Assembly: GCF_004337475.1 (NCBI RefSeq)
Contig: NZ_SJZJ01000010.1
Location: forward strand, 1-64,000
Reading direction: 5' to 3'
Source of the DNA: Nocardioides jejuensis
GTDB lineage: Bacteria; Actinomycetota; Actinomycetes; Propionibacteriales; Nocardioidaceae
Length of the DNA stretch: 64,000 nucleotides
Positions 3,531-64,000 of the stretch are shown one piece after another (within the stretch, counting starts at the first letter, position 1; every line of letters starts with the position of its first letter). The notes beneath the pieces are model-generated. The model worked only from the letters and a program-made list of their open reading frames with translations. It searched no databases and had not been told where the DNA came from. A program made the translations under genes and the position numbers.

Positions 3531-4705
3531 CGGCGGGGCCGGAAGATCCACCACCGCATCGCCACGAACCGCAGGCCGGTCGCGACGAGGTTCGCCACGG
3601 TCAGCACGGTGATCTCGACGCCGTGGGGCGCGCGCGGGGCGGCGGCGTCCAGCACCACGAGCGATCCGCTGGTCAGCAGCAGGCCGATGCCGAAGACCAG
3701 CAACCCCTGCCCGTGGTGCGCGGCCAGTGACTCCTTCCCGCGTACGCCGAAGGTCAGGTGCCGGTTGGCTGCCGTGTTCGCGACAGCCGTGAGCGCGAGT
3801 GCCAGCGCGTTGGCGGCCTGGGCCGGCACCAGCTGCCGGAGCAGCAGGAAGAGCAGCGCGTAGGCGAGGGTCGAAGCGAGTCCGACCAGGGCGAAGAGGC
3901 CGAGCTGGTTGCCGAGCCGTCCGCTCCGGCCGCGGACGTCGAGCTGCCGCCGGACGTCGGTGAGCGGGAGCCGACCGGTGAGCAGGCTCCAGCCCAGGCG
4001 GCCCATGCCCCGGAGGTCGTCGACTGCGGTCTGGACGATGTCGACACGCGAGTCGGGGTCGTCGACCCAGTCGACGGGCACCTCGTGGATCCGCAGGCCG
4101 GTCCGCTCGGCCAGCACGAGCAGCTCGGTGTCGAAGAACCAGGCGTCGTCCTCGACCAGCGGCAGCAGGGCGTCGGCGACGTCCCGGCGTACCGCCTTGA
4201 AACCGCACTGGGCATCGCTGAACCGCGCCCGCAGCGCGCCGCGGAGCAGCACGTTGTAGGTGCGGGACACGAACTCGCGCTTGGCGCCGCGGGTGACCCG
4301 CGAGCTCCGGTGGAGACGCGAGCCGATCGCGAGGTCCGAGTGGCCGCTGAGCAGGGGAGCCACGAGCGGGACCAGGGCGTTGAGGTCGGTCGACAGGTCA
4401 ACGTCCATGTAGGCGACGACGTCCGCATCGGAGTCGGACCACGCCCGCTTGAGCGCACGGCCCCGCCCCTTCTCGGGGAGCGTGAGCACGGAGACACCGG
4501 AGTGCTGGCGGGCCAGCTGGCGAGCGACGAGTGGGGTCGCGTCCGTGCTGGCGTTGTCGGCGATGGTGATCCGCCAGGCCCAGGGGAAGTCCCGCAGTGC
4601 GGTGGTCAGCCGTGCGACGGCCCCGGGGAGGGCGACCTCCTCGTTGTAGACCGGGATCACCCACTCTACGACCGGCTCGGCGGCTGGCGACTCGAGGGCG
4701 CTCAT
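3515..4705 (-). CDS. Family 2 glycosyltransferase fused to a GtrA-like membrane domain
   Basis: This 396-residue protein has a GT-A fold domain (about residues 12-240) with the metal-binding DVD motif at 101-103 and a QCGFKA stretch near 171, as in dolichyl-phosphate mannose/glucose synthases. It is followed by a four-helix GtrA-like domain (about 262-390). Such proteins charge polyprenyl phosphate with a sugar at the inner face of the membrane, and the GtrA part is thought to help flip the lipid-sugar. The gene overlaps the upstream YkcB/PMT-like gene by 4 bp (ATGA). That suggests this enzyme makes the lipid-linked sugar which the large membrane transferase uses outside. Confidence 0.9.
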   Translation of the reverse strand: MSALESPAAEPVVEWVIPVYNEEVALPGAVARLTTALRDFPWAWRITIADNASTDATPLVARQLARQHSGVSVLTLPEKGRGRALKRAWSDSDADVVAYMDVDLSTDLNALVPLVAPLLSGHSDLAIGSRLHRSSRVTRGAKREFVSRTYNVLLRGALRARFSDAQCGFKAVRRDVADALLPLVEDDAWFFDTELLVLAERTGLRIHEVPVDWVDDPDSRVDIVQTAVDDLRGMGRLGWSLLTGRLPLTDVRRQLDVRGRSGRLGNQLGLFALVGLASTLAYALLFLLLRQLVPAQAANALALALTAVANTAANRHLTFGVRGKESLAAHHGQGLLVFGIGLLLTSGSLVVLDAAAPRAPHGVEITVLTVANLVATGLRFVAMRWWIFRPRRDTDQ

Positions 4706-6762
4706 GAGGTGGCCAGGGTGAGGTCGTAGAGCGTCACGCCGTCGACCGTGGTGGCCGTGAAGGTGCTGCTCACCCAGGTGGCGATCTGGCTGGAGGCGTT
4801 GGAGCCACCGCTCTGGCTGCCGCCGCCCATACCCATGCCGCCGCCGATGAACCAGTGGATCTTGCCGTCGGCCACCAGCTGCTTGAACTCGGCGAGCGTC
4901 GGGCTCGGGTCGGAGCCGTTGAAGCCGCCGATCGGCATGACCGGCTTCTCCGTCGCGAGCTGGTAGCCGCTCGCGGAGTTGGACCCGACGGCTGCAGCGA
5001 CCCAGGTGTAGTGGTCGGCGTCCTGCAGCAGCAGCTTGGTCAGCGCGGCGCTCGGGGTCGAGCCGTTGAGCAGCCCGCCTGCTCCGCCGCCCATCCGGGA
5101 GCTCTCGCCGGCGCCGGGAAACTGCATGCCCTGCGGTGCGGTGCCCTGCGTCGTACCGGTGGTGCCGGGCTGGGCCTGTTGGCCCTGCTGGCCGGCGGTC
5201 ATGCCGGGAGGGGTGCCCATCTGGCCGCGCATGCCGCCGCCGGGACCGCCTATGCCGCCGGCGCCGTTCGGACCCGCAGTCGGGATCGAGCCGGTGTGCG
5301 GGGTGGCCGCCGTCGAGAGGGAGTACGCCGCCGGGCCGGCGAGGACGGCCGCGATCGCGATCGCCGCGATGGCCGGGGCCCAACGACCGGCGAGGCGCAC
5401 GGCGCCGAGGGCGGTGGCTGCGCCGAGACCGACGACCAGCACGACCCAGCGCAGCCACGGCTGCCAGTCGGTGCGGCCGAGCAGCTCGAACGCCCACACG
5501 CTGGAGAGCGCCGTGGCGGCGGCGAGCAATGCGCTGGCGACGAGGTGGTCGCGACGGGCCCACAGCACGTGCGCACCGATGGCGACGCTGGCGGCGATCG
5601 CCGGGGCGAGGGCCACCGCGTAGTAGGCGTGGAAGATGCCGGCCATGAAGCTGAACGTCAGCCAGGTGACGACCAGCCAGCCAGCCCAGACGGTCGCCGC
5701 CGCCGACGTACGCCGGGGGAGCGGAGCGATCTTCAGGGCGCGTGCGACGCGGGGGATCGCGAGGGCAAGGGTGGCCGCTGCGAGGAGCAGCGCGGCGGGG
5801 AGAAGCCAGGAGCCCTGGGCGCCGTTCTCGCTGTCGAAGAGGCGGAACAGGCCGGTCGAGCCCCACATGGAGCTGCCCCCGCCCATGCCACCGCCGCCGA
5901 CGGAGCCGGTCTCGTTGCCGCTGAGCCGACCGAGGCCGTTGTAGCCGAACGTGAGCTCGAGGATCGAGTTGCCCTGCGAACCGCCGATGTACGGCCGCAT
6001 GCTCGCCGGGACCAGCTCCACGATCGCGATCCACCAGCCGGCGGCGGCGATCATCGCGCCGAACGCGGCGAGCAGGTGGAGGATCCGCTTCCCGACGGTG
6101 ACCGTCGCGGACGCGAAGAGCAGGTAGGTCAGCGCCAGGGTCGGCAGGACGAGGAACGCCTGCAGCATCTTGGTCAGGTACGCCAGGCCGACGAGACCGC
6201 CGCCGAGCACCAGCCAGCGGACCGCGCGCGGCGACTCGGTCGCCCGCAGCGTCGCGTGGACCGCGCCGATCAGCAGCAGCACGAGGAGCGCGTCGGGGTT
6301 GTCGAAGCGGAACATCAGGACCGCGACCGGGGTCAGTGCGAGGACGGCGCCGGCGAGCAGGCCGGTCACGTGGCTGCCGGTGGCCCGCTTCACGGTCGCA
6401 TGGAGGAGGGCCACGGCGGCGACGCCCTCGATCGCCTGGGGTACGAGCAGTGACCAGGAGCTGAGGCCGAAGACCCGGATGCTCAACGCCATCGGCCACA
6501 GCGAGAGCGGCGTCTTGTCGACGGTGATCGAGTTCGCCGCGTCGGACGAGCCGTAGAAGAACGCCTTCCACGACTCCGAGCCGGCCTGCGCGGCTGCGGC
6601 GTAGAACGAGTTGGCCCAGCCGGACTCGCCCAGGCCCCAGAGGTAGAGCAGGGCGGTGGCAGCCAGGAGGCCGAGGAGCGTCGCGCGCTCCGTCGTACGC
6701 CGGCGGGCGGGGGTGGCCGCGTGTGTCGCGGTGGTCGTCGGTGCGGAGAGGACGGCGGTCAT
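4702..6762 (-). CDS. ArnT/PMT-family membrane glycosyltransferase (YkcB-like)
   Basis: This 686-residue integral membrane protein has about a dozen hydrophobic helices in the first 470 residues. Then comes a Gly/Met/Gln/Pro-rich linker, and a C-terminal extracytoplasmic domain beginning around residue 565. The N-terminal region (GLGESGWANSFY, then VDKTPLSLWP) matches the start of family 39-type mannosyltransferases of the YkcB group, which transfer sugars from a polyprenyl-phosphate donor. It starts at ATG 6762, two codons downstream of the stop of a small membrane protein, and overlaps the GT2-GtrA gene. The acceptor is unknown. Confidence 0.88.
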   Translation of the reverse strand: MTAVLSAPTTTATHAATPARRRTTERATLLGLLAATALLYLWGLGESGWANSFYAAAAQAGSESWKAFFYGSSDAANSITVDKTPLSLWPMALSIRVFGLSSWSLLVPQAIEGVAAVALLHATVKRATGSHVTGLLAGAVLALTPVAVLMFRFDNPDALLVLLLIGAVHATLRATESPRAVRWLVLGGGLVGLAYLTKMLQAFLVLPTLALTYLLFASATVTVGKRILHLLAAFGAMIAAAGWWIAIVELVPASMRPYIGGSQGNSILELTFGYNGLGRLSGNETGSVGGGGMGGGSSMWGSTGLFRLFDSENGAQGSWLLPAALLLAAATLALAIPRVARALKIAPLPRRTSAAATVWAGWLVVTWLTFSFMAGIFHAYYAVALAPAIAASVAIGAHVLWARRDHLVASALLAAATALSSVWAFELLGRTDWQPWLRWVVLVVGLGAATALGAVRLAGRWAPAIAAIAIAAVLAGPAAYSLSTAATPHTGSIPTAGPNGAGGIGGPGGGMRGQMGTPPGMTAGQQGQQAQPGTTGTTQGTAPQGMQFPGAGESSRMGGGAGGLLNGSTPSAALTKLLLQDADHYTWVAAAVGSNSASGYQLATEKPVMPIGGFNGSDPSPTLAEFKQLVADGKIHWFIGGGMGMGGGSQSGGSNASSQIATWVSSTFTATTVDGVTLYDLTLATS

Positions 6763-6763
6763 C

Positions 6764-7120
6764 TCAGGCCTCCTTCTCGTCGGTGCGCGGAAGGGTGGCG
6801 CTCTGCTGGCCGAGGCCGGCGCCGGGCGCGATCTGGCCGGGGTTTCCGGCGGGCACCTGGCCCATCTGGCCGGGGAGTTGGCCACCCATCTGGCCGCCCA
6901 TCTGGCCCGGCATCTGTCCGGTGCCGGGGAACTGGCCGCGGCCGCCGAAGCCGCCACGGCCGGTGCTGCTGTCATCGGCGGCTGCTGCGAGGGCCACGCC
7001 GCCGGCGCTGCCGAGGATCACGGAGGCGAGAGTGGTCGCCGCAACCGCGCGCCAGCCGAAGAGTCGGTCACGCCAGCCGACGGCGAGCTTGTCGGGGAGG
7101 GGGTTCAGGGGGTCGCTCAT
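6764..7120 (-). CDS. Small membrane protein with Gly/Met/Gln/Pro-rich tail
   Basis: This 118-residue protein has one hydrophobic helix (about residues 26-48) followed by a low-complexity tail built from repeats such as GQMPGQ and GQMGG. It is the first gene of the glycosyltransferase operon, with its stop codon 1 bp before the start codon of the YkcB-like gene. The tail resembles the linker of that transferase (also Gly/Met/Gln-rich), so the two may interact. I recognise no domain and assign no function. It is a real gene by codon use, start context and operon position. Confidence 0.72.
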   Translation of the reverse strand: MSDPLNPLPDKLAVGWRDRLFGWRAVAATTLASVILGSAGGVALAAAADDSSTGRGGFGGRGQFPGTGQMPGQMGGQMGGQLPGQMGQVPAGNPGQIAPGAGLGQQSATLPRTDEKEA

Positions 7121-7211
7121 GCAACGACCGTCGCGGGTCACCTCAGGCAGGAGCCCTGACCGGACTGTGCGCCACCTGTGAGTGGTGCGCGGCCGCCGAC
7201 CCGCCGCCCGC

Positions 7212-7239
7212 GCATCCGTGGCAGGACTGCCACGGATGC
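7212..7239. repeat. Palindrome 1 of a related pair
   Basis: A perfect 28-bp palindrome with 13-bp arms (GCATCCGTGGCAG and its complement) and a 2-nt centre. Its sequence is closely related to the palindrome at 7261-7292. Confidence 0.85.
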
Positions 7240-7260
7240 ACCTCGTGCCGCGCGGACCGG

Positions 7261-7292
7261 GTGCATCGGCGGCAGCACTGCCACCGATGCAC
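7261..7292. repeat. Palindrome 2 of a related pair
   Basis: A 32-bp palindrome with 15-bp arms and one mismatch. It shares the GCATC-N-G-N-GGCAG arm with the palindrome 21 bp upstream. As RNA each would form a hairpin in the 5' region of hrpA; as DNA each could bind a dimeric regulator. Confidence 0.85.
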
Positions 7293-7360
7293 GCCCTTCC
7301 GTGGGGTGACGCCGCGGGCGGCGAAAACCCGCTGGCGGCGTACGGGAGAATGGGCGCGCT

Positions 7361-10300
7361 GTGACTCTCTCCATCACGTATCCGGACCTGCCGGTCAGTG
7401 CCCGCCGCGACGACATCGCGGCGGCGATCCGCGACCACCAGGTCGTCGTCATCGCCGGCGAGACGGGCTCGGGCAAGACCACCCAGCTGCCGAAGATCTG
7501 CCTCGAGCTGGGCCGCGGGCTCGGCGGTCGCGAGGGCAAGCTGATCGGCCACACGCAGCCGCGCCGGATCGCCGCGCGGTCGGTCGCGGAGCGCATCGCC
7601 GACGAGCTCGGCACGGAGCTCGGCGACGTCGTCGGCTACCAGGTCCGCTTCACGGACCGCACGTCGGCAACGAGCCGCGTGAAGCTGATGACCGACGGCA
7701 TCCTGCTCGCGGAGATGCAGCGCGACCGCAAGCTCGAGAAGTACGACACGATCATCATCGACGAGGCACACGAGCGGTCGCTCAACATCGACTTCCTGCT
7801 CGGCTACCTCAAGCGGCTGCTCCCGCAGCGGCCCGACCTCAAGGTGATCGTCACCTCCGCCACGATCGACGTGGAGCGTTTCTCGCAGCACTTCGCCGAT
7901 CCGCGCACCGGGAAGCCGGCGCCGGTCATCGAGGTCTCCGGCCGCACGTTCCCGGTCGAGGTGCGCTACCGGCCGCTGATGCAGGACGATCTCGATGCCG
8001 AGGGCGAGCCCGTCGTCCGGGACCAGACCGAGGCGATCGTCGCCGCGGTCAAGGAGCTGTCGGCCGAGGGGCCGGGCGACATCCTCTGCTTCCTGCCGGG
8101 CGAGCGGGAGATCCGCGACACCGCGGATGCGCTCTCTGCGGCACTCGGCATCCGCAAGGACGACAAGCGCGGTCTGGTCGAGATCGTCCCGCTCTTCTCG
8201 CGCCTGTCTGCGGCCGACCAGCACAGGGTCTTCGCTCCGCACACCGGCCGCCGCATCGTCCTGTCGACCAACGTCGCCGAGACCTCGCTGACCGTCCCCG
8301 GCATCAAGTACGTCGTCGACGCCGGCGTCGCGCGCATCTCCCGCTACTCGGCGCGGACCAAGGTCCAGCGGCTGCCGATCGAGCCGATCTCGCAGGCTTC
8401 GGCGAATCAGCGGTCCGGCCGCTGTGGCCGTGTCTCCGAGGGCATCGCGATCCGGCTCTACTCGGAGGAGGACTTCCTCGGGCGGCCGGAGTTCACCGAT
8501 CCGGAGATCCTGCGCACCAACCTCGCCAGCGTCATCCTGCAGATGGCATCGCTGCGGCTCGGCGACATCGCCCGGTTCCCGTTCGTCGAGAAGCCCGACT
8601 CCCGCAACGTCCAGGCCGGCGTCCAGCTGCTCGAGGAGCTGGGCGCGTTGTCGGCGGCGGGCTCGGTCTCGGCCGACGGACGCTCACAGGGGCCGCGGCT
8701 GACCCGGCTCGGCCAGCGCCTCGCGCGCCTCCCGCTCGACCCGCGACTCGGCCGGATGATCCTCGAGGCCGAGCGACTCGGCTGTGTGCGCGAGGTGCTG
8801 GTCATCGCCGCGGCGCTGTCCCTGCAGGACCCGCGCGAGCGGCCCGGCGACGACCGGCCCGCCGAGCAGGCGCGCGCCGTGCAGCTGCACGCGCGCTTCA
8901 AGGTCGAGGGGTCGGACTTCCTGGCCTGGCTCCAGCTGTGGAAGCACATCAAGGACTCCCAGCGCGAGATGGGCTCGAGCGCCTTCCGGCGGATGTGCCG
9001 CGACGAGTTCCTCAACTACCTCCGCGTGCGCGAGTGGCAGGACTTCGAGTCGCAGCTGCGCCAGGTGGCCAAGGAGATGAAGGTCGAGCTCGGGCAGCCC
9101 GCCGATCTGCCCGACGCCGACGGCATCCACCAGGCGCTGCTCTCGGGCCTGCTCTCGCACATCGGTGCGCTGGAGGAGCGCGACAAGCGCGATACCGGGC
9201 CCGCCGCGAAGGGGAAGCGGCCCGGACCGCGGGAGTACCTCGGGGCGCGCGGCACCCGCTTCGCGATCTTCCCGGGCTCCTCGCTCAAGGGCTCGAGCCC
9301 GCAGTTCCTGATGGCCGGCGAGCTCGTCGAGACCGGCCGTCTCTGGGCCCGGCAGAACGCCGCGATCAAGCCCGAGTGGGCCGAGCGGCTCGGCGCCAAC
9401 CTGGTCAAGCGCATCTACTCCGAGCCGCACTGGTCACGGAAGCGGGCGGCCGTCACGGCGTACGAGAAGGTCACGCTGTACGGCGTCCCGCTGGTCGCCG
9501 ACCGCCCGGTCAACTACGGGAAGATCGACCCCGAGCTGAGCCGCGAGCTCTTCATCCGCCACGCGCTCGTGTACGGCGAGTGGCACAGCCGGCACCGTTT
9601 CCTCGCGGACAACAAGCGTCTGCTCGAGGAGGCGGAGGAGCTCGAGCACCGCGCCCGCCGCCGCGACATCGTGGTCGACGAGCACACGCTCTTCGACTTC
9701 TACGACGCCCGCGTGGGCAAGGAGTGCGTCAGCGGCGCGCACTTCGACACGTGGTGGAAGCAGGCGCGGCAGCGCGAGCCGAAGCTGCTCACCTTCGACC
9801 CGACGATGCTCACCCACGACACGGCCGGCGAGGTCGCCGCCAGTGACTTCCCGAGCGAGTGGCAGGGGAGCGAGGGCGGGCTGACGTTCAGCATCGGCTA
9901 CCACTTCGAGCCGGGCGCCAAGGACGACGGCCTCACCATCGACGTGCCGCTGGCGACGCTCAACCGGGTCGAGGCAGACGAGTTCTCCTGGCTCGTGCCG
10001 GGCCTGCGCGAGGAGCTCGTCACCTCGCTGATCCGCAGCCTGCCCAAGCAGCTCCGGGTCAGCCTCGTGCCGGCACCGAACCACACCCGCGCCTTCCTCG
10101 ACGCGGTGCCGCCCGGTGAGGAGTCACTCCTCGACGCCCTCGAGCGCCACGTCCGCGCCACCGTCGGCGTCGTGGTGCCCCGCGACGCATGGGACTGGTC
10201 CAAGGTGCCGGACCACCTGAAGCCGACCTACCGGGTCGTCGACGAGCAGGGTGGCGAGCACGGCCGCGGCAAGGACCTCGAGGCGCTCAAGGCGCCGCTC

Positions 10301-53907: not shown

Positions 53908-54960
53908 GTGACCATCCTTCGTACCGAGGTGCTGCCCTCGTCGCGTCCCGACGTGGACCAGCGACCGCGCAAGATCTCGAGGAAGCCGTCCGGCGTCGAC
54001 GCCGTCTTCGCGCACTCCTCCCGTGCCGTCGGCGCCACCGTCCTCGTCATCACGGGCGGCGTCGGCCTCTTCCTGGCGCTCCAGGCGATCCCGACCCTCC
54101 GCGACTACGGCACGAGCTTCTTCACCGAGGAGCAGTGGTCGCCGGACACCAACCAGATCGGCATCGCGGGCGTCCTCGTCGGCACGGTCTCGGTCGCCCT
54201 GGTCGCGATGTTCTTCGCCTTCCCGCTCGCCCTGGCGAGTGCGCTCTACATCTCCGAGTACGCGCCGGCGAAGCTGAAGCCGACGCTGGTCTCGATGATC
54301 GACCTGATGGCCGCCGTGCCCTCGATCGTCTACGGCCTGTGGGGCTTCTTCCTGGTCATGCCGCACGCGGGTCAGGTCGCGGTCGGCATCCAGAAGCTGC
54401 TCGGCTGGATCCCGATCTTCCGGGTCACCACGATCGACGCCTCGGGCGCGGTCGTGACGGCCGACCCGCACGCCGCAGTGGTCGACGCGACCCGCTACGT
54501 CTCGAGCGCCTTCTGCGCCGGCATCGCGGTCTCGATGATGGTCATGCCGATGGCCTGCGCGGTCATGCGCCAGGTCTTCTCGCAGACGCCCCCGGGGGAG
54601 AAGGAGGCCGCGCTCGCGCTCGGCTCCACCCACTGGGGCATGATCCGCGCGGTCGTCCTGCCGTTCGGCCGCGGCGGCATCATCGGTGGCACGATGCTCG
54701 GCCTGGGCCGCGCGCTCGGCGAGACCATCGCCGTCGTCCTCATCGTCTCTCCGGCGTTCGACATCAAGCCCCGCATCCTCGAGATCGGTACGGCGACGGT
54801 GTCGTCGCTCATTGCCGCCCGCTTCGGCGAGGCGACGGCCGCCCAGCTCTCGGCGCTGCTCGCCGCCGGCCTGGTGCTCTTCCTGCTCACGTTCGTCGTC
54901 AACACGCTGGCCGCCCTGATCGTGGCGCGCAGCCGCTCCGGAGCGGGGGCTGACGCCTGA
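53908..54960 (+). CDS. pstC: Phosphate ABC transporter permease PstC
   Basis: This 350-residue permease has about six membrane helices, preceded by a 40-residue basic cytoplasmic tail, and the EAA loop GEKEAALALGSTHWGMIRAVVLP that docks to PstB. It starts at GTG 53908, with AGGAAGAG 4 to 5 nt upstream. The stop shares a base with the pstA start (TGATG). It is the first gene of the high-affinity phosphate uptake operon. Confidence 0.95.
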   Translation: MTILRTEVLPSSRPDVDQRPRKISRKPSGVDAVFAHSSRAVGATVLVITGGVGLFLALQAIPTLRDYGTSFFTEEQWSPDTNQIGIAGVLVGTVSVALVAMFFAFPLALASALYISEYAPAKLKPTLVSMIDLMAAVPSIVYGLWGFFLVMPHAGQVAVGIQKLLGWIPIFRVTTIDASGAVVTADPHAAVVDATRYVSSAFCAGIAVSMMVMPMACAVMRQVFSQTPPGEKEAALALGSTHWGMIRAVVLPFGRGGIIGGTMLGLGRALGETIAVVLIVSPAFDIKPRILEIGTATVSSLIAARFGEATAAQLSALLAAGLVLFLLTFVVNTLAALIVARSRSGAGADA

Positions 54961-56186
54961 TGACCGCCGTCGCTGAGGCTGCCGAGCTCGTCTCCGGCAC
55001 CACGCACCGTCCCGTGCGCGACCCGCACGCGCCCGCGCCGCGTCCGCTCGCCACGCTCGGCAAGCCGACCGCCGAGGACTCCTTCCGTAACTGGGGCTCG
55101 CTCGCGGGCGCGGCCGCGCTCGCCTGGCTGCTCTGCGAGCGCCTGCTCCCGCTGCCGGGCGTCGCCTGGTTCCTCGTTGTCTGGTTCCTCTTCAGCGTCG
55201 TCCTCGGCGCGCTCGTCGCCCTCATGCGCGGCGGGGTGCCGGACATGGTCGACATGGTCGCCCGTCGGGTCATCCTGTGGGCGTTCCTGCTGATCGTCGG
55301 AGCGCTCGCCAGCGTCATCGGCTTCGTCTTCCTGCGCGGCTGGCACCCGTTGGTCCACCTGAACTTCTGGACCGACGACATGGCCGGAGTCGGCCCGAAG
55401 GACGGCATGGACAAGGGTGGCGTCCTGCACGCCATCGTCGGCTCGCTCATCGAGCTCGGCATCGGCCTCGCGATCACCGTGCCGCTCGGCATCGGCACCG
55501 CGGTGTTCATGAACGAGATCGGTGGCCGCTTCGCCGCCGTCGTCCGCACGGTGGTCGAGGCGATGACCGCCCTGCCGTCGATCGTGGCCGGCCTCTTCAT
55601 CTACACGGTCTGGCTGCTCGCCCTGGGGCAGCAGCGTTCCGGCTTCGCGGCCTCGCTGGCGATCGCGGTCATGATGCTGCCGATCATCGCCCGTGCCTCC
55701 GACGTCGTGCTCCGCGTCGTCCCGGGCAACCTGCGCGAGGCCTCCCTCGCCCTCGGCTCGAGCCGCTGGAAGACCGTCTGGCACGTCGTCCTGCCGACGG
55801 CCCGCCCGGGTCTCGCGACCGCCGTCATCCTCGGCCTCGCACGGGGCGTCGGCGAGACCAGCCCGGTCCTGCTCACCTCCGGCGCGGCCAACGCACTCAC
55901 GCTCGACCCGCTGAAGCTGATGAGCTCGCTGCCGCTCTACATCTTCACGCTGGTCCGCTCCGGTGAGCCCGCGTCGATCGACCGCGGCTTCGGTGGCGCC
56001 GCCGCCCTGCTGCTCCTCGTCCTCACCCTCTTCATCGCGGCGCGACTGATCGCCCGCCCGCAGAGCGCGAAGCCGCGCCGCCGCCCGATCCGCGGCACCG
56101 CGTCGTTCGCCCGCCGCCTCATCGTCCTGAACCGCGCCACGCACACCGTGGGCCCGGTCGACCTGAACCAGGAGACCTCTTCATGA
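54960..56186 (+). CDS. pstA: Phosphate ABC transporter permease PstA
   Basis: This 408-residue permease has an extended N-terminal region (about 90 residues, with extra helices) relative to common PstA. It carries the conserved EAA-loop region REASLALGSSRWKTVWHVVLP and the GVGETSP segment. It overlaps pstC and pstS. With PstC it forms the membrane channel for phosphate. Confidence 0.95.
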   Translation: MTAVAEAAELVSGTTHRPVRDPHAPAPRPLATLGKPTAEDSFRNWGSLAGAAALAWLLCERLLPLPGVAWFLVVWFLFSVVLGALVALMRGGVPDMVDMVARRVILWAFLLIVGALASVIGFVFLRGWHPLVHLNFWTDDMAGVGPKDGMDKGGVLHAIVGSLIELGIGLAITVPLGIGTAVFMNEIGGRFAAVVRTVVEAMTALPSIVAGLFIYTVWLLALGQQRSGFAASLAIAVMMLPIIARASDVVLRVVPGNLREASLALGSSRWKTVWHVVLPTARPGLATAVILGLARGVGETSPVLLTSGAANALTLDPLKLMSSLPLYIFTLVRSGEPASIDRGFGGAAALLLLVLTLFIAARLIARPQSAKPRRRPIRGTASFARRLIVLNRATHTVGPVDLNQETSS

Positions 56187-57766
56187 CCCGCCGTACGCCG
56201 TTGCTGGCCGCCGTCCTCGCGATCCTGACGGTCTTCTCGCTCAACTCCTCCGCGCAGGCCGTCACCTACTCCGCGATCGCCGGCACGGGCTCGTCCTGGT
56301 CGTACAACATCGTGCGCCAGTGGATGTCTGACGTGAACTCCAACGGCATCACCGTGGACTACACGCCCAACGGATCGACCCAGGGCCGCAAGGACTTCGC
56401 GAACTACACCAACGACTTCGCGATCTCCGAGATCCCGTACCAGGGCGTCGATGAGTCCGGCCAGGTCGACAAGTCCGACCGCCCGTACGCGTACCTCCCG
56501 ATCGTCGCCGGCGGCACGGCGTTCACGTACCAGCTGAAGATCGGCAACACGATGGTGCGCAACCTGCGCCTGTCGGGGGAGACGCTGACCAAGATCTTCA
56601 CGAACCAGATCACCAACTGGAACGACCCGCAGATCAAGAAGGAGAACGGCGGCCGCACGTTCCCCGACCTCGCGATCACCCCCGTGGTCCGCGCCGACGG
56701 CTCGGGTACGACGGCCCAGTTCACCGCCTGGATGGCCGACCAGTACCAGTCGCTCTGGAAGTCCTACTCGGGCCGCACCGGGCTGACGTCGTTCTACCCG
56801 AAGAAGGGCCGCATGCTCGGCGCCGCGGGCTCCGACCAGGTGATGAACCAGATCGCCGCCTCCACCGGCAACGGCACCATCGGCTACATCGAGTACTCGT
56901 ACCCGCTCAACAAGACCGCGGCCGACGGCAAGCCGTTCCCGGTCGTCAAGGTCCTCAACAAGGGCGGCTACTACGTCGAGCCGACCGAGTACAACGTCGC
57001 CGTCGCGCTGACGAAGGCCCGGATCCGGACCGACCTCCCGCAGAACGACCCGCTCTACCTGACCCAGGACCTGCGCGGCGTCTACACGTTCAACGACCCG
57101 CGGGCGTACCCGATCTCGTCGTACTCGTACATGATCATCCCGATCTCCGGCACCGACCGGACGATGACGACGGCGAAGCGCCAGGCGCTCTCCGACTTCC
57201 TCTTCTACGGTCTCTGCTCCGGCCAGTCGAAGGCGGGCCCGTACGGCTACTCGCCGCTGCCGCTCAACCTTGTCCAGGCCGGCTTCGACCAGGTCAAGCG
57301 CCTGGGGAAGGCCGACCCGAAGGTCGACCTGACCAACAAGGACGTGAAGTCCTGCGGCAACCCGACGTTCGACGGCAAGAACCCGAACAAGAACGTCCTG
57401 GCCGAGAAGGCCCCGATGCCGGCGGCCTGTGACAAGGCGAGCGCCGCGCCCTGCGGCACCGACACCGGCACGAACACGCCGTCGACGGACGACAAGAACG
57501 CGCCGACCACGCCCGGCACGACCACCGCTCCGGGAGCCGGCCCCGCGCCGGTCGCCGGAGCAGTCGATCCCGAGACCGGAGCGGTCATCGCCGCCAGCAC
57601 TGCCACGGCAGGACAGCCGGTGTCGGCCGTCGCGACCCCGCTCAGCTCGGACCGGCCGGGCCAACTGCTGCCCTTCGCCGTCGTCGACGCCGGGCTGCTG
57701 GTCGCCCTGGTCACCGCCCCCGGCATGTACGCCGCGTTCCTCCGCCGCCGGAAGGGTGTCCTCTGA
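56183..57766 (+). CDS. pstS: Phosphate-binding protein PstS with C-terminal membrane anchor
   Basis: This 527-residue secreted binding protein has a signal peptide ending SAQA (about residue 26) and a phosphate-binding fold with ADGSGTT at 171-177. A Thr/Pro/Ala-rich linker (about 410-480) and one C-terminal helix (about 497-520) with an RRRK tail follow. It lacks a lipobox Cys, so the anchor at the C-terminus replaces lipid anchoring. It overlaps pstA by 4 bp. It delivers phosphate to PstCA. The C-terminal anchor is not an LPxTG motif. Confidence 0.9.
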   Translation: MTRRTPLLAAVLAILTVFSLNSSAQAVTYSAIAGTGSSWSYNIVRQWMSDVNSNGITVDYTPNGSTQGRKDFANYTNDFAISEIPYQGVDESGQVDKSDRPYAYLPIVAGGTAFTYQLKIGNTMVRNLRLSGETLTKIFTNQITNWNDPQIKKENGGRTFPDLAITPVVRADGSGTTAQFTAWMADQYQSLWKSYSGRTGLTSFYPKKGRMLGAAGSDQVMNQIAASTGNGTIGYIEYSYPLNKTAADGKPFPVVKVLNKGGYYVEPTEYNVAVALTKARIRTDLPQNDPLYLTQDLRGVYTFNDPRAYPISSYSYMIIPISGTDRTMTTAKRQALSDFLFYGLCSGQSKAGPYGYSPLPLNLVQAGFDQVKRLGKADPKVDLTNKDVKSCGNPTFDGKNPNKNVLAEKAPMPAACDKASAAPCGTDTGTNTPSTDDKNAPTTPGTTTAPGAGPAPVAGAVDPETGAVIAASTATAGQPVSAVATPLSSDRPGQLLPFAVVDAGLLVALVTAPGMYAAFLRRRKGVL

Positions 57767-60207
57767 TGCGGACCCTGATCCGGATCCTGCTCGCCTGCGT
57801 CGCGCTCGCGGCGACGGCGCTGCTCGGCATGGCACCGGCTGCTGATGCCTCGGGCACGGACGCCTTCACCGCGACGAAGACGGTTACCCGCACCGTCGAC
57901 GGCGCGACGACGTCCAAGGACGTCACGGTCAGCGTCGACCACACGCTCAACCTGCGCGGTCGCGAGCGCCTGCAGATCTCGTGGAGCGGCGCGGTCGGCA
58001 CGAGCGCCCAGGCCACGAACCCCTACGGCGCGACGGGTCTGACCCAGGAGTACCCGATGGTGATCATGGAGTGCCGCGGCACCCCGGACACCGTCAAGCC
58101 GGAGACCTGCTACACCTCGAGCATCGCCCAGCGCTCCGCGGGCACCTTCGACGGCGACTCCGCGATCTGGCGTCGCGACCCCGCGTGGGCCGGTGCCACG
58201 GCGCCCACGGACCCCTGCAAGACGCCGAACAACTACACCGTCCCGTTCATCGCGGCCAACGGCAAGAAGTTCGACTACTGCACCGACCAGGACGTCGCGC
58301 CCGAGTCGCTGCTGCCCGCCGAGCTGCTCGGCTACACCTCCAAGGAGGGCACGGGCGCCGCGAGCTTCGAGGTCCGCACGGACGTCGAGAACGAGTCGCT
58401 CGGCTGCAGCCACACCACCGCGTGCTCGCTCGTCGTCGTCCCGATCATGGGCACGAGCTGCGACGCCCGGAAGGGTGACGACCTGCAGTTCGCCTACTGC
58501 TCGGCCAATCGCACGTACGCCGCAGGCACGGGCTACGGCGAGTTCGAGGGCACCCCGGCGGTCAAGGGCAACTACTGGTGGACCGCGTCGCAGTGGAAGA
58601 ACCGAATCACGGTCCCGCTGACGTTCGCCCTCCCGGCCAACACCTGCGACCTCCTCGACAAGCGTCCGCCGGTCGGCTTCTACGGCTCCGAGCTGCTCGC
58701 GCAGGCCTCGCTGCAGTGGTCCCCGGCGTACTGCCTGGACCAGAAGCGCTTCAAGTACCAGCACAACCAGATGGGCGACGCCTCCGGCTTCGACCTGATG
58801 CTCCACGACCAGGCGGCGGGCGCGCTCGTCTCCTCGCAGCACGACGCCGGCGCTGACCAGGTGGCGTACGCGCCGACCGCGGTCACCGGCTTCGGCATCG
58901 GCTACGTCATCGACCGTCCGGCGTACGACGAGAACGGCAACCCGCAGGTCGGCGGCGAGGTCCACTCGCTGAAGCTCGACGCGCGGCTGCTGGCCAAGCT
59001 GCTGACGCAGTCCTACACGGGCAACGCCGTGGGCGCGCAGCACCCGGGCATCGAGAGCAACCCGGTCTCGATCAACGAGGACCCGGAGTTCCAGAAGCTC
59101 AACCCGGACGCGCCGCGCGTCGGCCGTATCGAGGGCGCCACCCTCCTGAGCCTCTCCGAGGCGTCGGACACGGTGGAGCAGCTGACGGACTACATCGCGC
59201 ACGACAAGGACGCGATGGCGTTCATCAACGGTGCCAAGGACCCCTCCGGCATGGTCGTGAACCCGAGTTACAAGGGCTACAAGCTCCCGACCCAGACGTG
59301 GGAGCTCAAGGACTCCTTCGTCGGCAACACGGACTGCTGGAAGGCGAACCCGTCGCCGTTCTTCTCGCTGATGGCCGCCCCGGTCAGCCGGATGTACACG
59401 ATCACGCAGGCCCTCATCGACGCGCAGCCGAACATCCAGACGCGGTGCGAGGAGCAGGTCAACGCCGCGACCAAGTGGAAGCTCGGCAAGATCGACCGCC
59501 AGGGCTACGGCAACCGCTTCATGCTCGGTCTGGTCAGCCTCGGTGACGCCGAGCGCTACGGCATCGACGTCGCGAAGCTCGAGACGACCGACGGCACGTT
59601 CGTCGCGCCGACGCACGACTCCGAGTCCGCGGCGGTCGCGCTCATGAAGCAGAAGGGGGCCCGCCAGCCGTTCACGCTCGACCAGGCCGCGGTGAAGAAG
59701 TCCGCCACGGCGTACCCGGGCACGATGGTCGTCTACACGGCCGCGAAGACCTGCGACGTGAAGGCCGACGTCGCCGACCACGTGGCGAGCTTCGTGCGGA
59801 TCGCGACGACCGAGGGCCAGGTGCCCGGCTCCGGCAACGGCCGGCTGCCCGACGGCTTCCTGCCGATCGTGAAGACCGGTGCGACCGCGCCGCTGTTCAA
59901 GGCCGCGCAGCAGACCGCTGACGCCGTCGCGGCGCAGAAGTGCGCGGTCCCGGCCGTCACCCCGGCCACCGGCGGTACGACGACGCCGGCGGCCATGGCT
60001 CCTGCCGCCGTCACTCCTCCGGCTGCATCCGGGCCCGACAAGGCGGCGGCCACCACGCCCACCGCGACCACCCCGGTCTCGATGGGCACGACCAAGGCGC
60101 CCACCGCGGCGGTCGGCTTCGTCCTCCTCCCGGTGCTCTTCGCGCTCGCCCTCGCCGGTGCGCTCGCCTCCGTCGTCGCCCGCGTCCTCGTCGCGAGTCG
60201 CTCATGA
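57766..60207 (+). CDS. Large surface-anchored protein of the pst operon (813 aa)
   Basis: This 813-residue secreted protein has a signal peptide (1-29), a Cys-containing body (at least 14 Cys, probably disulfide-linked) and a Pro/Ala/Thr-rich tail. A final helix (about 785-807) anchors it in the membrane. Parts such as ADQVAYAPTAVTGFGIGYVIDRP and GMVVNPSYKGYKL recall solute-binding folds, but I see no clear domain. Its ATG shares a base with the pstS stop, so it is cotranscribed and coupled. It may help phosphate capture at the surface; this is inferred only from position. Confidence 0.8.
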   Translation: MRTLIRILLACVALAATALLGMAPAADASGTDAFTATKTVTRTVDGATTSKDVTVSVDHTLNLRGRERLQISWSGAVGTSAQATNPYGATGLTQEYPMVIMECRGTPDTVKPETCYTSSIAQRSAGTFDGDSAIWRRDPAWAGATAPTDPCKTPNNYTVPFIAANGKKFDYCTDQDVAPESLLPAELLGYTSKEGTGAASFEVRTDVENESLGCSHTTACSLVVVPIMGTSCDARKGDDLQFAYCSANRTYAAGTGYGEFEGTPAVKGNYWWTASQWKNRITVPLTFALPANTCDLLDKRPPVGFYGSELLAQASLQWSPAYCLDQKRFKYQHNQMGDASGFDLMLHDQAAGALVSSQHDAGADQVAYAPTAVTGFGIGYVIDRPAYDENGNPQVGGEVHSLKLDARLLAKLLTQSYTGNAVGAQHPGIESNPVSINEDPEFQKLNPDAPRVGRIEGATLLSLSEASDTVEQLTDYIAHDKDAMAFINGAKDPSGMVVNPSYKGYKLPTQTWELKDSFVGNTDCWKANPSPFFSLMAAPVSRMYTITQALIDAQPNIQTRCEEQVNAATKWKLGKIDRQGYGNRFMLGLVSLGDAERYGIDVAKLETTDGTFVAPTHDSESAAVALMKQKGARQPFTLDQAAVKKSATAYPGTMVVYTAAKTCDVKADVADHVASFVRIATTEGQVPGSGNGRLPDGFLPIVKTGATAPLFKAAQQTADAVAAQKCAVPAVTPATGGTTTPAAMAPAAVTPPAASGPDKAAATTPTATTPVSMGTTKAPTAAVGFVLLPVLFALALAGALASVVARVLVASRS

Positions 60208-61196
60208 GCACCGTCGTCAGCGGCCGGCGGATCGCCGAGCCCGGGCCCGTCAAGGGCCGCCGGTTCCGTCTGCCCACCCGCGCGCCCCGCACGCCCCGCC
60301 CCGCACGTCAGCCGCGCCCGAAGGTCCCGCTCACGCGGGAGCAGGAGCGCCTGGTGCTGATGTCGTCGGTGCTGACGATGGTCGCGATCGTCTGCCTGTG
60401 GTCGCTCGCGCAGATGCTCCTGCTCGGCCGGCTCTCCGAGGACCGGTCGCAGGGCCTGCTGTACCCGGAGTTCCGCCACGAGCTGGCCGCGCAGACCGCG
60501 CCGACGGGTCCGACCACCGTCGACGCCGACGGCAAGACCGTCGCCGTTGCCCCTGGTGAGCCGGTGGCCGTCGTCTCCGCTCCGGAGATCGGTCTGTCCC
60601 AGGTCGTCGTCGAGGGCACGGCCCCCAGCGACCTCCTCGCCGGACCGGGCCACCGTCGTGACACGGTCCTCCCCGGCCAGGAGGGGACGTCCCTGGTCTA
60701 CGGCCGCGCGACGACGTACGGCGGCCCGTTCGGCAAGATCGAGGACCTGCGCGCCGGTGACCACATCTACGTCGTCATCGGCCAGGGCCGCGTGGACTTC
60801 ACCGTCCTCGGTGTCCGGTACGACGGCGACCCGCTGCCGCCCGCGCCCGCCGCGGGCAAGGCGCGACTGGTCCTGACGACCGCGGAGCAGCTGCGCTGGG
60901 GCATGAGCCCCGGCCGTGCCGTGTACGTCGACGCGGAGGCGCCCAAGGCGTACCCCGCACCCTCCGGACGGCCTGCCGCCGTCCCTGAGCCCGAGCTGGC
61001 CATGCAGACCGACTCCGGAGCGATGCCGCTCCTGGTCCTCTGCCTGGCCGGACTCGTGGCGGTGACGCTCGGGGTCATCGCCGCCCGTCAACGTTGGTCG
61101 GCAGCGCTGGTCTGGGTGGTCGCCACCCCGATCGTGATCGCGCTGTCGTGGGGGACCACGGATGTGGTGATGAGGCTGTTGCCCAACCTGATCTGA
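60204..61196 (+). CDS. Degenerate class-E-like sortase homologue
   Basis: This 330-residue membrane protein has a basic N-terminal tail, one helix (about 51-76) and an extracytoplasmic sortase-fold domain (about 125-245: VVEGT, GPGH, ATTYGGPF, LRAGD, VLGVRYDG), then two C-terminal helices. The catalytic His of the GHRTTYG motif is Arg168, and the catalytic Cys of the TLxTC motif is Ala227. It cannot be a normal sortase. It overlaps the 813-residue protein gene by 4 bp. A scaffold or binding role for the C-terminally anchored proteins is inferred. Confidence 0.82.
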   Translation: MSTVVSGRRIAEPGPVKGRRFRLPTRAPRTPRPARQPRPKVPLTREQERLVLMSSVLTMVAIVCLWSLAQMLLLGRLSEDRSQGLLYPEFRHELAAQTAPTGPTTVDADGKTVAVAPGEPVAVVSAPEIGLSQVVVEGTAPSDLLAGPGHRRDTVLPGQEGTSLVYGRATTYGGPFGKIEDLRAGDHIYVVIGQGRVDFTVLGVRYDGDPLPPAPAAGKARLVLTTAEQLRWGMSPGRAVYVDAEAPKAYPAPSGRPAAVPEPELAMQTDSGAMPLLVLCLAGLVAVTLGVIAARQRWSAALVWVVATPIVIALSWGTTDVVMRLLPNLI

Positions 61197-61255: not shown

Positions 61256-63160
61256 ATGTCCATCCGCACCACCTTTGCGGGTATCGCCACGGTCGCGGCC
61301 AGCGCCACCGTGCTCACCATCGCCTCGCCGGCCATGGCCGACTACACCGCGGCTCCGAACGACTCCGTCCAGGGCCAGGCCGCCACCGGCGACGTCCTGG
61401 GCTTCGGCTCCGACACCACCGAGATCTCGGTCTTCAAGGTCGCCGACGCCTGGAACAAGCAGGCCGTCGCCCCGGCGTTCAAGATCGCCACCTACCAGGC
61501 GGGCGCCCAGCCGACCTCGGGTCCGGCCAACACGATCACGCTGCCCAACGGCACCGTCATCAACCGCCCGAACGGCTCCGGCCAGGGCAAGGCCGTCCTC
61601 TTCGGCGCCAGCAACCAGGCCGAGGCCGACTTTGCGCGCTCCTCGGGCTCGCTGAGCACGGGCGCCGGCTCGGAGCAGGCCGCCGGCCTCCTCCAGATCC
61701 CGTTCGCCGTCGACACGCTCGGCATGGGCGTCTCGTCGACCGCCACCAACGCTCCGGCGTCGCTGACGATCGACCAGATCTACAAGATCTACTCCGGTCA
61801 GGTCACCGACTGGTCGCAGGTCGGCGGCAAGGCCGGCACCATCAAGGCCTCCGCCCTCCAGGGTGGTTCGGGCACGGGCAAGTTCTTCAAGGACGCGCTC
61901 ACGGCGTACGCCCAGGGGCGCGGCACGACGTTCTCCTACGGCCCGGCGATCGACACGACGTGGCAGGAGCACTCCGACACCAACGTCAAGGACGACCCGA
62001 ACGCGATCGCGCCGTTCTCCATCGGCCGCGCCGGTCTCCTCGGTGGCACCGTCCACATCGAGTCGGGCTGGTCGAAGAAGCGCGCCGTCTACAACGTCGT
62101 CCGTGGCTCGCAGAGCACCGACGCCGGCCTGAAGTGGGGCGCGGACAGCAACGTCCTCGAGTCGCTCTTCGGCACCGACGGCTTCTTCTGTGACCCGGCC
62201 AACGCTGCCGCGATCGCTGCCGGTGGTCTCCAGCAGATGCTGAAGCCGGCTGACGGTGGCGCCTGTGGCCAGGCCATGACGTCGGCTCCGGCCGCGTCGC
62301 AGCTGGTCTCGGAGAAGGTCGCCACCACGACGACCGTCGCCGACACCGGTGACACCGCTGGCACGCTCGGCGTCACCGCGACCGTCGTCGGCGACGGCGT
62401 CACCGCCCCGGCCGGCACCGTCGACTTCTTCGTCGACGGCTCCGCCACCGCGGCCGTGTCCAACGTGGCCGTCACCGATGGCAAGGCCGTCGCCGCGATC
62501 GACGGTCTGACCGCCGGCGCGCACCAGGTCGTCGCCAAGTACGCGAAGTCCTACGGCACCGCGTTCATCAACTCGGAATCGGCCTCGACGGCTGCCAACG
62601 TCCGCACCGCGTCGTCGGTCGCGCTGGCCACCTCGCCGGCCACCGGCAAGTACGGCACGGCCCGCACGCTGACCGCCACCGTCACGGGCGCCACCACCGG
62701 CACCGTCGCGTTCAAGGTCGGCACCTCGGCCGCGGTCAACGCGGTCGTGACCAATGGCGTCGCCACCTACACGGTGCCGGCTTCGAAGTCCGCCGGCACG
62801 TACGCCGTCTCGGCGACGTACCTGCGCACGGACGCGGTCGCCAGCTCGTCGGCGTCCGCCAGCCTGGTCGTCGCCAAGGCCTCGCCGGTCATCTCGGAGT
62901 CCTTCCCGACGGCCACCTCGGTCGGCGTCGCCGGCAAGGGCACGATCAAGGTCGCCATCTCGGGCAGCACCGTCTACCCGACCGGCACCGTGCGGGTCTA
63001 CCTGGGCACCAAGCTGCTCAAGTCGGCCACGCTCAGCTCCGGAAAGGTCGTCGTGACCCTGCCGAAGCTCACCAAGGGCGCCCACACGCTCACGATCAAG
63101 TACCTCGGCTCCACCAACGTCAACGCGGGCTCCAAGTCCTTCTCGATGACGCAGCGCTGA
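61256..63160 (+). CDS. PstS-like binding protein with C-terminal Ig-like domains
   Basis: This 634-residue secreted protein has a signal peptide ending SPAMA (about residue 28) and a PstS-like fold with GFGSDTTE near 50 and GGSGTGKFF near 200. Three Ig-like beta-sandwich domains follow (about 360-450, 455-545 and 550-634). No lipobox or C-terminal helix is seen, so it may be released or held by its Ig-like domains. It starts at ATG 61256 with AGGAGA upstream. It is the second binding protein of the operon and lies just before pstB. Confidence 0.88.
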
Positions 63161-63240: not shown

Positions 63241-64000
63241 ATGACGAACCCGACGATCGACGAAGACCGCCCGACGCAGACCATCCCGGTCGTCGGCGCG
63301 CCCCTCCTTGGCACCGGCCTGCCGGCGCCGTCGGCCGACCGCACGGTCGCTCCCGCACCCGGCGGCCTCGCCGAGCTCGAGGCACGCGACATCACGGCCT
63401 GGTTCGGCGACCGCATGGTCCTCGATCGTGTCTCCCTGACCATGCCCGCCGGCGGCATCACCGCCCTCATCGGCCCCTCCGGCTGCGGCAAGTCCACCTT
63501 CCTGCGCATTCTCAACCGCATGCACGAGCTGGTGCCGTCGGCCCAGCTCGCGGGCCAGGTGCTCCTCGACGGCACCGACATCTACGACCCGCAGATGCGG
63601 CTCATGGACGCCCGCCGTTCGATCGGCATGGTCTTCCAGAAGCCGAACCCGTTCCCCGCTATGTCCATCCGCGAGAACGTGCTCGCCGGCCTGAAGCTCA
63701 CCGGCACCAAGGCCTCGAAGGCCGACAAGGACGACCTCGTCGAGTCCTGCCTGATCAAGGGCGGCCTCTGGAACGAGGTCAAGGACCGCCTCGACGCCCC
63801 CGGCGGCGGCCTCTCCGGTGGCCAGCAGCAGCGTCTGTGCATCGCGCGCTCGCTCGCGATCAAGCCGCGCGTGCTGCTCATGGACGAGCCGTGCTCCGCG
63901 CTCGACCCCACCTCGACCCGCGTGATCGAGGAGACGATGCTCGAGCTCGCCAACGAGGTCACGATCGTCATCGTCACGCACAACATGCAGCAGGCTGCGC
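63241..64000 (+). CDS. pstB: Phosphate ABC transporter ATPase PstB (partial, 3' end outside window)
   Basis: The ATPase of the phosphate importer is open at the right edge of the window. About 253 residues are visible: an N-terminal extension of about 45 residues not seen in ordinary PstB, Walker A GPSGCGKS at 78-85, [16 protein letters not shown] (Q loop), LSGGQQQR signature, [12 protein letters not shown] (Walker B) and VTHNMQQAA (switch His). It starts at ATG 63241. It hydrolyses ATP to drive phosphate import. Confidence 0.95.

Follow-up and report, generated by a model that had tools for sequence, protein, structure and literature searches.

The stretch of DNA considered here, which we call the window, comprises the 64,000 nucleotides at positions 1 to 64,000 of contig NZ_SJZJ01000010.1 of Nocardioides jejuensis. 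Toward its end lies an operon-like run of plus-strand genes encoding, in order, PstC, PstA, an anchored PstS-like protein, a large PstS-like protein that we call BIG813, a sortase-fold protein, a PstS-like protein with Ig-like repeats, and PstB. The sortase-fold protein is our subject. Sortases are known as enzymes; this protein keeps their fold and lacks all three of their catalytic residues. Because the triad is lost in relatives across the actinobacteria and the gene travels with pst genes, the protein is probably a non-enzymatic part of the importer. The run contains the following features.

53929..54960, + strand: PstC-like permease (BPD_transp_1, E 1.1e-9; PstC homologues in related loci)
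54960..56186, + strand: PstA-like permease (BPD_transp_1, E 8.8e-15), its start overlapping the PstC stop
56183..57766, + strand: PstS-like protein ending in a membrane helix followed by basic residues (PBP_like_2, E 2e-41; TIGR00975, E 4.3e-53)
57766..60207, + strand: BIG813 (813 aa), PstS-like, carrying additional N-terminal sequence and a membrane helix at the C-terminus
60082..60096, + strand: MGTTK, at the position of a degenerate sorting-like motif ahead of the BIG813 membrane helix (tail comparison)
60204..61196, + strand: pseudo-sortase, 330 aa, its ATG overlapping the BIG813 stop (open reading frame, Pfam, alignment, AlphaFold2 model)
61256..63160, + strand: PstS-like protein with Big_3_5 Ig-like repeats (PBP_like_2, E 3.5e-10; Big_3_5, E 2.7e-23)
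63241..63999, + strand: PstB-like ATPase, continuing beyond the window end (TIGR00972, 340.3 bits; match C10:63376-64137)

The start of the PstC-like gene is a GTG picked through homology, in a frame that is open from 53473. Starts and stops overlap at 54960, 56183, 57766, and 60204, so the proteins of the run are probably made together. The nearest named relatives are from Nocardioides. PstC, PstA, and PstB are thus all encoded in the run together with a PstS receptor, the full set of a Pst-type importer.

The pseudo-sortase is a member of the sortase superfamily by fold. It matches Pfam Sortase PF04203 (E 3e-11; 43.6 bits against a cut-off of 26.6), and its top solved relative by sequence is the class E sortase SrtE, 5go5 (E 4.4e-11). 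An AlphaFold2 (AF2) model built from 17 sequences, with a predicted local distance difference test score (pLDDT) of 81 and a predicted template modeling score of 0.71, shows a beta-barrel at residues 104-246, preceded by a long helix on the N-terminal side and followed by two C-terminal helices. A structure search with this model returned 4d70 (Z 17.9, root mean square deviation [rmsd] 2.8, 152 aligned), 5go5 (Z 14.3), and 5cuw (Z 13.9). All 50 PDB entries among the matches listed are sortases, as are the matches listed by Foldseek. The initial annotation, made from the sequence, held that the fold motifs around the active site are preserved. The Pfam match and the Z scores of up to 17.9 bear this out, and the comparison with SrtE that it proposed likewise returns the sortase fold. 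The parts of the protein are arranged as follows.

60342..60437, + strand: membrane helix 1, about residues 47-78 (hydropathy; AF2 helix 45-95)
60513..60941, + strand: sortase beta-barrel, residues 104-246 (AF2 strands; 4d70 and 5go5 matches)
60705..60707, + strand: Arg168 at the catalytic His site, codon CGC
60882..60884, + strand: Ala227 at the catalytic Cys site, codon GCG
60918..60920, + strand: Ala239 at the catalytic Arg site, codon GCC
61008..61091, + strand: membrane helix 2, about residues 269-296 (hydropathy; AF2 helix 273-295)
61095..61193, + strand: membrane helix 3 and conserved C-terminus LLPNLI, residues 298-330 (AF2, hydropathy)

The ending LLPNLI is kept in the first family alignment, which has 17 rows.

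Single-residue assignments at the active site come from sequence alignment rather than from model coordinates. In the alignment with 5go5, the query reads 'vygRatty' over 'vagHrrty' and 'lttAe' over 'lttCe'. The earlier proposal that Arg168 replaces the catalytic His and Ala227 the catalytic Cys therefore stands, both here and in the family alignment, and the third triad residue, Arg, is replaced as well (Ala239). We also considered R238 as a retained triad Arg and rejected it, because it is residue 239 that aligns with the catalytic Arg of intact sortases.

These losses are fixed across the family. We compared 86 distinct members including the window's own, two rows from locus L129 having been set aside before residues were counted. 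The His site is R in 81 and K in five. The Cys site is A in 67, S in 13, T in three, G in two, and V in one, and no member has R at the Arg site. Thus, the class E catalytic triad is missing entirely from all 86. The ordinary, intact sortases in the same alignment keep H, C, and R in 10 of 10; these are nine lower-scoring matches of the same searches plus one from the window's genome, and so not a random sample. The aromatic residue after GxGH that is proposed to read LAxTG in class E sortases is likewise absent from every family member (Arg in 59), while Y or F follows GPGH in nine of the 10 intact sortases. Conversely, Asp243 occurs in 82 of the 86 and in none of the 10. A further 18 copies from a sample of 394 genomes of the class agree: all 18 carry R in place of the catalytic His, Cys is absent from all 17 that reach the Cys site, and Arg from all 16 that reach the Arg site. 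Copies in this sample were read as far as their contigs reach, and the fragments in genomes G340 and G350 lack the His site. The member at locus L158, added later and outside the 86, keeps the triad Arg only. All 17 rows of the 17-row alignment match the class E model NF033747 at E <= 0.001; the window protein scores 56.7 bits against a cut-off of 160. On these sequence grounds, it should be named a pseudo-sortase rather than a class E sortase.

The gene is under purifying selection. The ratio of nonsynonymous to synonymous substitution (dN/dS) is 0.04-0.25 in 28 of 30 listed pairs, those with dS >= 0.1. The other two pairs give 0.82 (dS 0.008) and 0.21 (dS 0.055). No internal stop was found within the listed family matches in the 394 genomes.

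Phylogenetic analysis points to a single origin. In a full-length tree of 82 rows and 300 columns, with the catalytic columns excluded and one-helix sortases as root, 71 catalytically dead rows fall on one side of a branch with support 100/97. This tree omits L129 and L130, and near-copies were removed (104 rows to 82). An earlier tree of the sortase domain alone (98 rows) gave the family split a support of only 65, and L119 and L160 sit on long branches of unsure placement. The nearest intact neighbors of the dead clade are L157, L159, and L161, from other actinobacterial classes. These proteins have intact H, C, and R, three predicted membrane helices, no pst genes nearby, and class E scores of 176.6, 188.9, and 174.2 bits, respectively, against the cut-off of 160. 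The deepest dead row is L158, from a pst locus. Its His site is occupied by Arg and its Cys site by Ser, and it scores 121 bits against the class E model, compared with 57 for the window protein. Orthologues with intact His and Cys were sought in 293, 394, and 396 genomes; in the 293-genome search, residues were read among fetched loci only, from the matches listed. The three-helix intact homologues that these searches brought up all lie away from pst loci and do not belong to the dead clade, and they therefore look like the ancestral enzyme. The pst operon probably captured an active three-helix class E-type sortase that then lost its triad. The simplest history suggested by the sequences is that His and Cys were lost first and Arg afterward. 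Triad loss in all 86 members, purifying selection, and descent within one clade together lend good support to the initial annotation's claim that the protein is a pseudo-enzyme.

The dead copies are closely linked to pst genes. A pst-type gene lies within 5 kb of 93 of 95 copies (94 distinct, fragments counted), at least two kinds of pst gene lie near 84, and at least three kinds near 70. In 79 of the 95, a same-strand pst-type gene lies within 300 bp. The two copies without a pst neighbor (L102 and L151) are each within 45 bases of a contig end. By comparison, none of 13 loci with catalytically intact sortases has a pst-type gene nearby at the score limits chosen. These limits were set after the data had been seen, and the PstB limit of 290 bits excludes other ATP-binding cassette ATPases (100-205 bits) near several loci, those of intact sortases included. 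Locus counts are not counts of independent events, and the L025 and L039 proteins are identical over one aligned stretch.

The pseudo-sortase and BIG813 also occur together. In the 394 genomes, the family is found in 53 and BIG813 in 53, with both in 49, only one of the two in four and four, and neither in 337. Family membership here means E < 1e-39 plus one C-terminal fragment (G340), a line that was chosen after the data had been seen and that falls in a gap from 7e-40 to 3e-28. In the four BIG813-only genomes, the contig stops 0.3-2.2 kb beyond the last pst gene found, and in one of them (G503), the start of the sortase gene is visible at the contig edge. Of the four sortase-only genomes, three are cases of short contigs or of fragments; the remaining one (G420, L119) holds a divergent set. 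Over the phylum, 12 of 396 genomes match at E <= 1e-30; the matches in two of them (G898 and G994) proved to be intact sortases, and G662 has both an intact and a dead copy. The intact sortase of G898 falls on the family side of the 1e-39 line (5e-44). A search of a plasmid collection found no family match.

BIG813 has no Pfam match, and its AF2 model has a mean pLDDT of 64. Its fold is nonetheless that of a PstS protein: residues 302-722 match Mycobacterium tuberculosis PstS3, 4lvq (Z 29.7, rmsd 2.5, 307 aligned), and the PstS-like region spans about 300-725. A Foldseek search was run as well. In a profile alignment, the counterpart of R.DGSGT, which we take to be the PstS phosphate-ligand signature, reads LSEASDT in BIG813, whereas the PstS-like protein upstream keeps RADGSGTT at residue 170. 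BIG813 may therefore not bind phosphate in the usual way, and may be a non-binding or differently binding receptor.

It had been claimed that the partners of the pseudo-sortase end in a membrane helix without LPxTG. This is so for the two PstS-like proteins encoded upstream (56183-57766 and 57766-60207), both of which also have basic residues there. It does not extend to the downstream PstS-like protein (61256-63160), whose lack of a terminal helix suggests that it is secreted, nor to related loci in which an LPxTG- or LAxTG-tailed protein adjoins the gene. A strict sorting-signal scan gave seven matches among 87 pseudo-sortase copies, which reduce to five distinct ones (L041, L046, L094, L104, and L110), because L041 and L093 are the same contig twice, equal in length and with an identical protein end, and the L067 match is BIG813's own LAKTA.

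A degenerate sorting motif does occur in some BIG813 tails. Among 26 nonredundant Nocardioides-like tails, 14 have [LM]PxT before the helix, always with Met, in forms such as MPATQ, MPATE, and MPPTT. None of the 14 has Gly next; the following residue is Q, E, T, or A. When these tails are shuffled, [LM]PxT appears 1.3 times on average, and none of 2000 shuffles reaches the observed count. Since the rows are related, this value shows that the motif is kept and not that it arose repeatedly. The tails come from a set reduced from 110 to 80 by a 70% identity filter, with L089, L119, L144, one L145 open reading frame, and very short tails dropped. A dead enzyme holding an uncleavable signal would fit Nocardioides, but not as a general rule.

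The operon itself varies. Loci of the Microbacteriaceae type carry extra surface proteins between BIG813 and the sortase gene, and one of these matches WxLIP_PGBD at 23.7 bits, below the cut-off of 27.3. Several such loci (L044 4834-7890, L053, L062, L076, and similar ones) encode proteins with ends much like LTLTLVSK. These ends presumably resemble WxL domains, although Pfam finds no WxL domain in the proteins that carry them. An actinobacterial WxL-type system joined to the Pst operon is possible. At L054 8952-11533, in genome G009 of the same taxonomic order, the pseudo-sortase is separated from the next PstS-like gene by genes for a PPC-domain protein and for a protein resembling lytic transglycosylases. 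Given these variants, the system appears to be a surface-exposed uptake complex that differs from lineage to lineage.

The window's genome has other sortases and another Pst system. A class E-like sortase on C12 (148 bits, cut-off 160) and a class F sortase on C18 (210 bits) both have His and Cys. A second, unrelated sortase-like protein without Cys is encoded at L129 (C18:1-12000) 4274-4963. It scores 100.8 bits against the class F cut-off of 166 and reads LISTGGP and TGYIS, where its upstream neighbor (3596-4270, class F, 210 bits) reads LITCGG and AGHVD. A second set of PstS-, PstC-, PstA-, and PstB-like genes lies at L149 (C5:8000-20000) 4352-8467. The PstB of this set exceeds the TIGR00972 cut-off, which makes the window's set an extra system; the window's own PstB-like ATPase falls 3 bits short (340.3 against 343.2). 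Similarity of the PstS and PstB proteins suggests phosphate, or a phosphate compound, as the substrate. The PHO-box-like repeat pattern is GTTCA-N6-GTTCA, and a scan of the window allowing two mismatches or fewer found six matches, below the mean of 18 in shuffled sequence.

How might a dead sortase serve an importer? We favor, with some confidence, the view that the pseudo-sortase has no enzymatic activity and serves in the membrane as a dedicated subunit or assembly factor for a Pst-type phosphate importer that has several PstS-like receptors. Its three helices would pack near PstC and PstA. The sortase domain would sit on the outer face of the membrane and hold the extended membrane-proximal tails of the receptors, those of BIG813 foremost. 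In this way, receptors would be kept beside the permease, neither cleaved nor attached to the cell wall. Without its nucleophile and base, a former cut-and-paste enzyme would have only its holding function left. The proposal is consistent with the fixed loss of the triad, the retained fold, purifying selection, a single origin, linkage to pst genes, and the overlapping start, all read from sequence. The initial annotation's suggestion that the protein binds tail-like segments or the transporter is plausible in light of the operon linkage and the degenerate MPxT tails. In a more specific version, which is a tentative possibility, the dead groove would still read sorting-like tails that lack Gly. 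Enzyme and signal would then have degenerated jointly, leaving a permanent docking pair, a non-cutting latch keeping surface receptors at the permease.

Several observations weigh against the subunit view. The pst operon is inherited as a block, so linkage does not pinpoint the relevant partner. MPxT is limited to some Nocardioides, and the 26 tails were selected, by locus number, with the motif already in view. Different juxtamembrane motifs are kept in other clades, such as TPxD in 15 of 80 tails, and L158, the deepest member, has no MPxT-like tail motif; tail binding may therefore not be the general role. An LPxTG or LAxTG neighbor may be the substrate of another sortase. Conservation of a basic residue in the His position could instead mean anion binding, and phosphate itself is a substrate suggested by similarity, in a genome with a second Pst set and with a PstB-like protein just under its model's cut-off.

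Anion binding is the basis of one alternative, in which phosphate or some other anion would occupy the former active-site pocket and the protein would signal this to the importer. The Arg or Lys at the His site of all 86 members, the family-specific Asp243, and the phosphate-importer context would suit such a ligand sensor. However, the upstream PstS-like protein already retains a phosphate-binding motif, and the basic residue may have a structural role or contact the carboxylate of a peptide. We regard a sensor as unlikely. A chaperone or quality-control factor that shields the membrane-proximal tails of the receptors from real sortases, without being a permanent subunit, seems improbable to us. 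The genome does encode two sortases with His and Cys, the Nocardioides BIG813 tails do resemble sorting signals minus Gly, and LAxTG or LPxTG proteins do adjoin the gene in five distinct loci, yet tails without a motif are common, so many partners would need no shielding.

Two further explanations fare worse. An active enzyme using another nucleophile or base, with Ser or Thr at or beside the Cys site, might be read from residue 226, which is Thr or Ser in 82 of the 86 members. However, that residue is also Thr or Ser in nine of the 10 intact sortases, residue 227 is mostly Ala, and His and Arg are lost as well; the residue counts at these four sites make such an enzyme very unlikely. Loss of all three catalytic residues could also mark the gene as the functionless, decaying remnant of an old sortase. 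The low dN/dS values, the intact reading frames, and retention in pst loci across the phylum disfavor a relic so strongly that we give it almost no credence.

It is useful to contrast the pseudo-sortase and its operon with known systems. The protein resembles class E sortases, namely, SrtE1 of Streptomyces coelicolor (5cuw) and SrtE of Streptomyces avermitilis (5go5), in its fold, its N-terminal membrane helix, and the motifs surrounding the active site (GPGH, PGQ.G, YG.PF). Unlike them, it has two extra C-terminal helices and scores under the NF033747 cut-off. The report on SrtE1 (PMC5148588) gives its catalytic triad as His251, Cys320, and Arg329 and proposes Tyr229 as the reader of the sorting signal; the counterparts of all four are replaced in the pseudo-sortase. 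The L157, L159, and L161 sortases share its three-helix plan and have similar endings (LLPANY, LLPSNF, and ALPGNY), but their triad is intact, they exceed the class E cut-off, and they have no pst-type gene at the thresholds used. The run resembles a PstSCAB phosphate importer in having PstC, PstA, PstB, and PstS-like genes together and differs from it in having three PstS-like proteins, two membrane-anchored and one with Ig repeats, plus the pseudo-sortase. To our knowledge, neither the extra PstS-like proteins nor the pseudo-sortase is part of canonical PstSCAB. Some Microbacteriaceae-type loci, with their weak WxLIP_PGBD match and WxL-like ends, recall the WxL/WxLIP operons of Firmicutes; unlike those operons, they have a WxLIP match below cut-off and no Pfam WxL domain, and the window has none of these genes. 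A literature search found no description of a dead sortase in a pst operon among the matches listed; most subscription papers lie outside its coverage, so such an absence is unproven.

If our reading is correct, a phylum-wide dead lineage tied to one kind of transporter would constitute a pseudoenzyme lineage whose active relatives, intermediate, and new context are all visible. Genes of this lineage that are still matched by sortase models should not count as sortases. More broadly, the pseudo-sortase would point to a so far unsuspected component of a nutrient importer known from textbooks.

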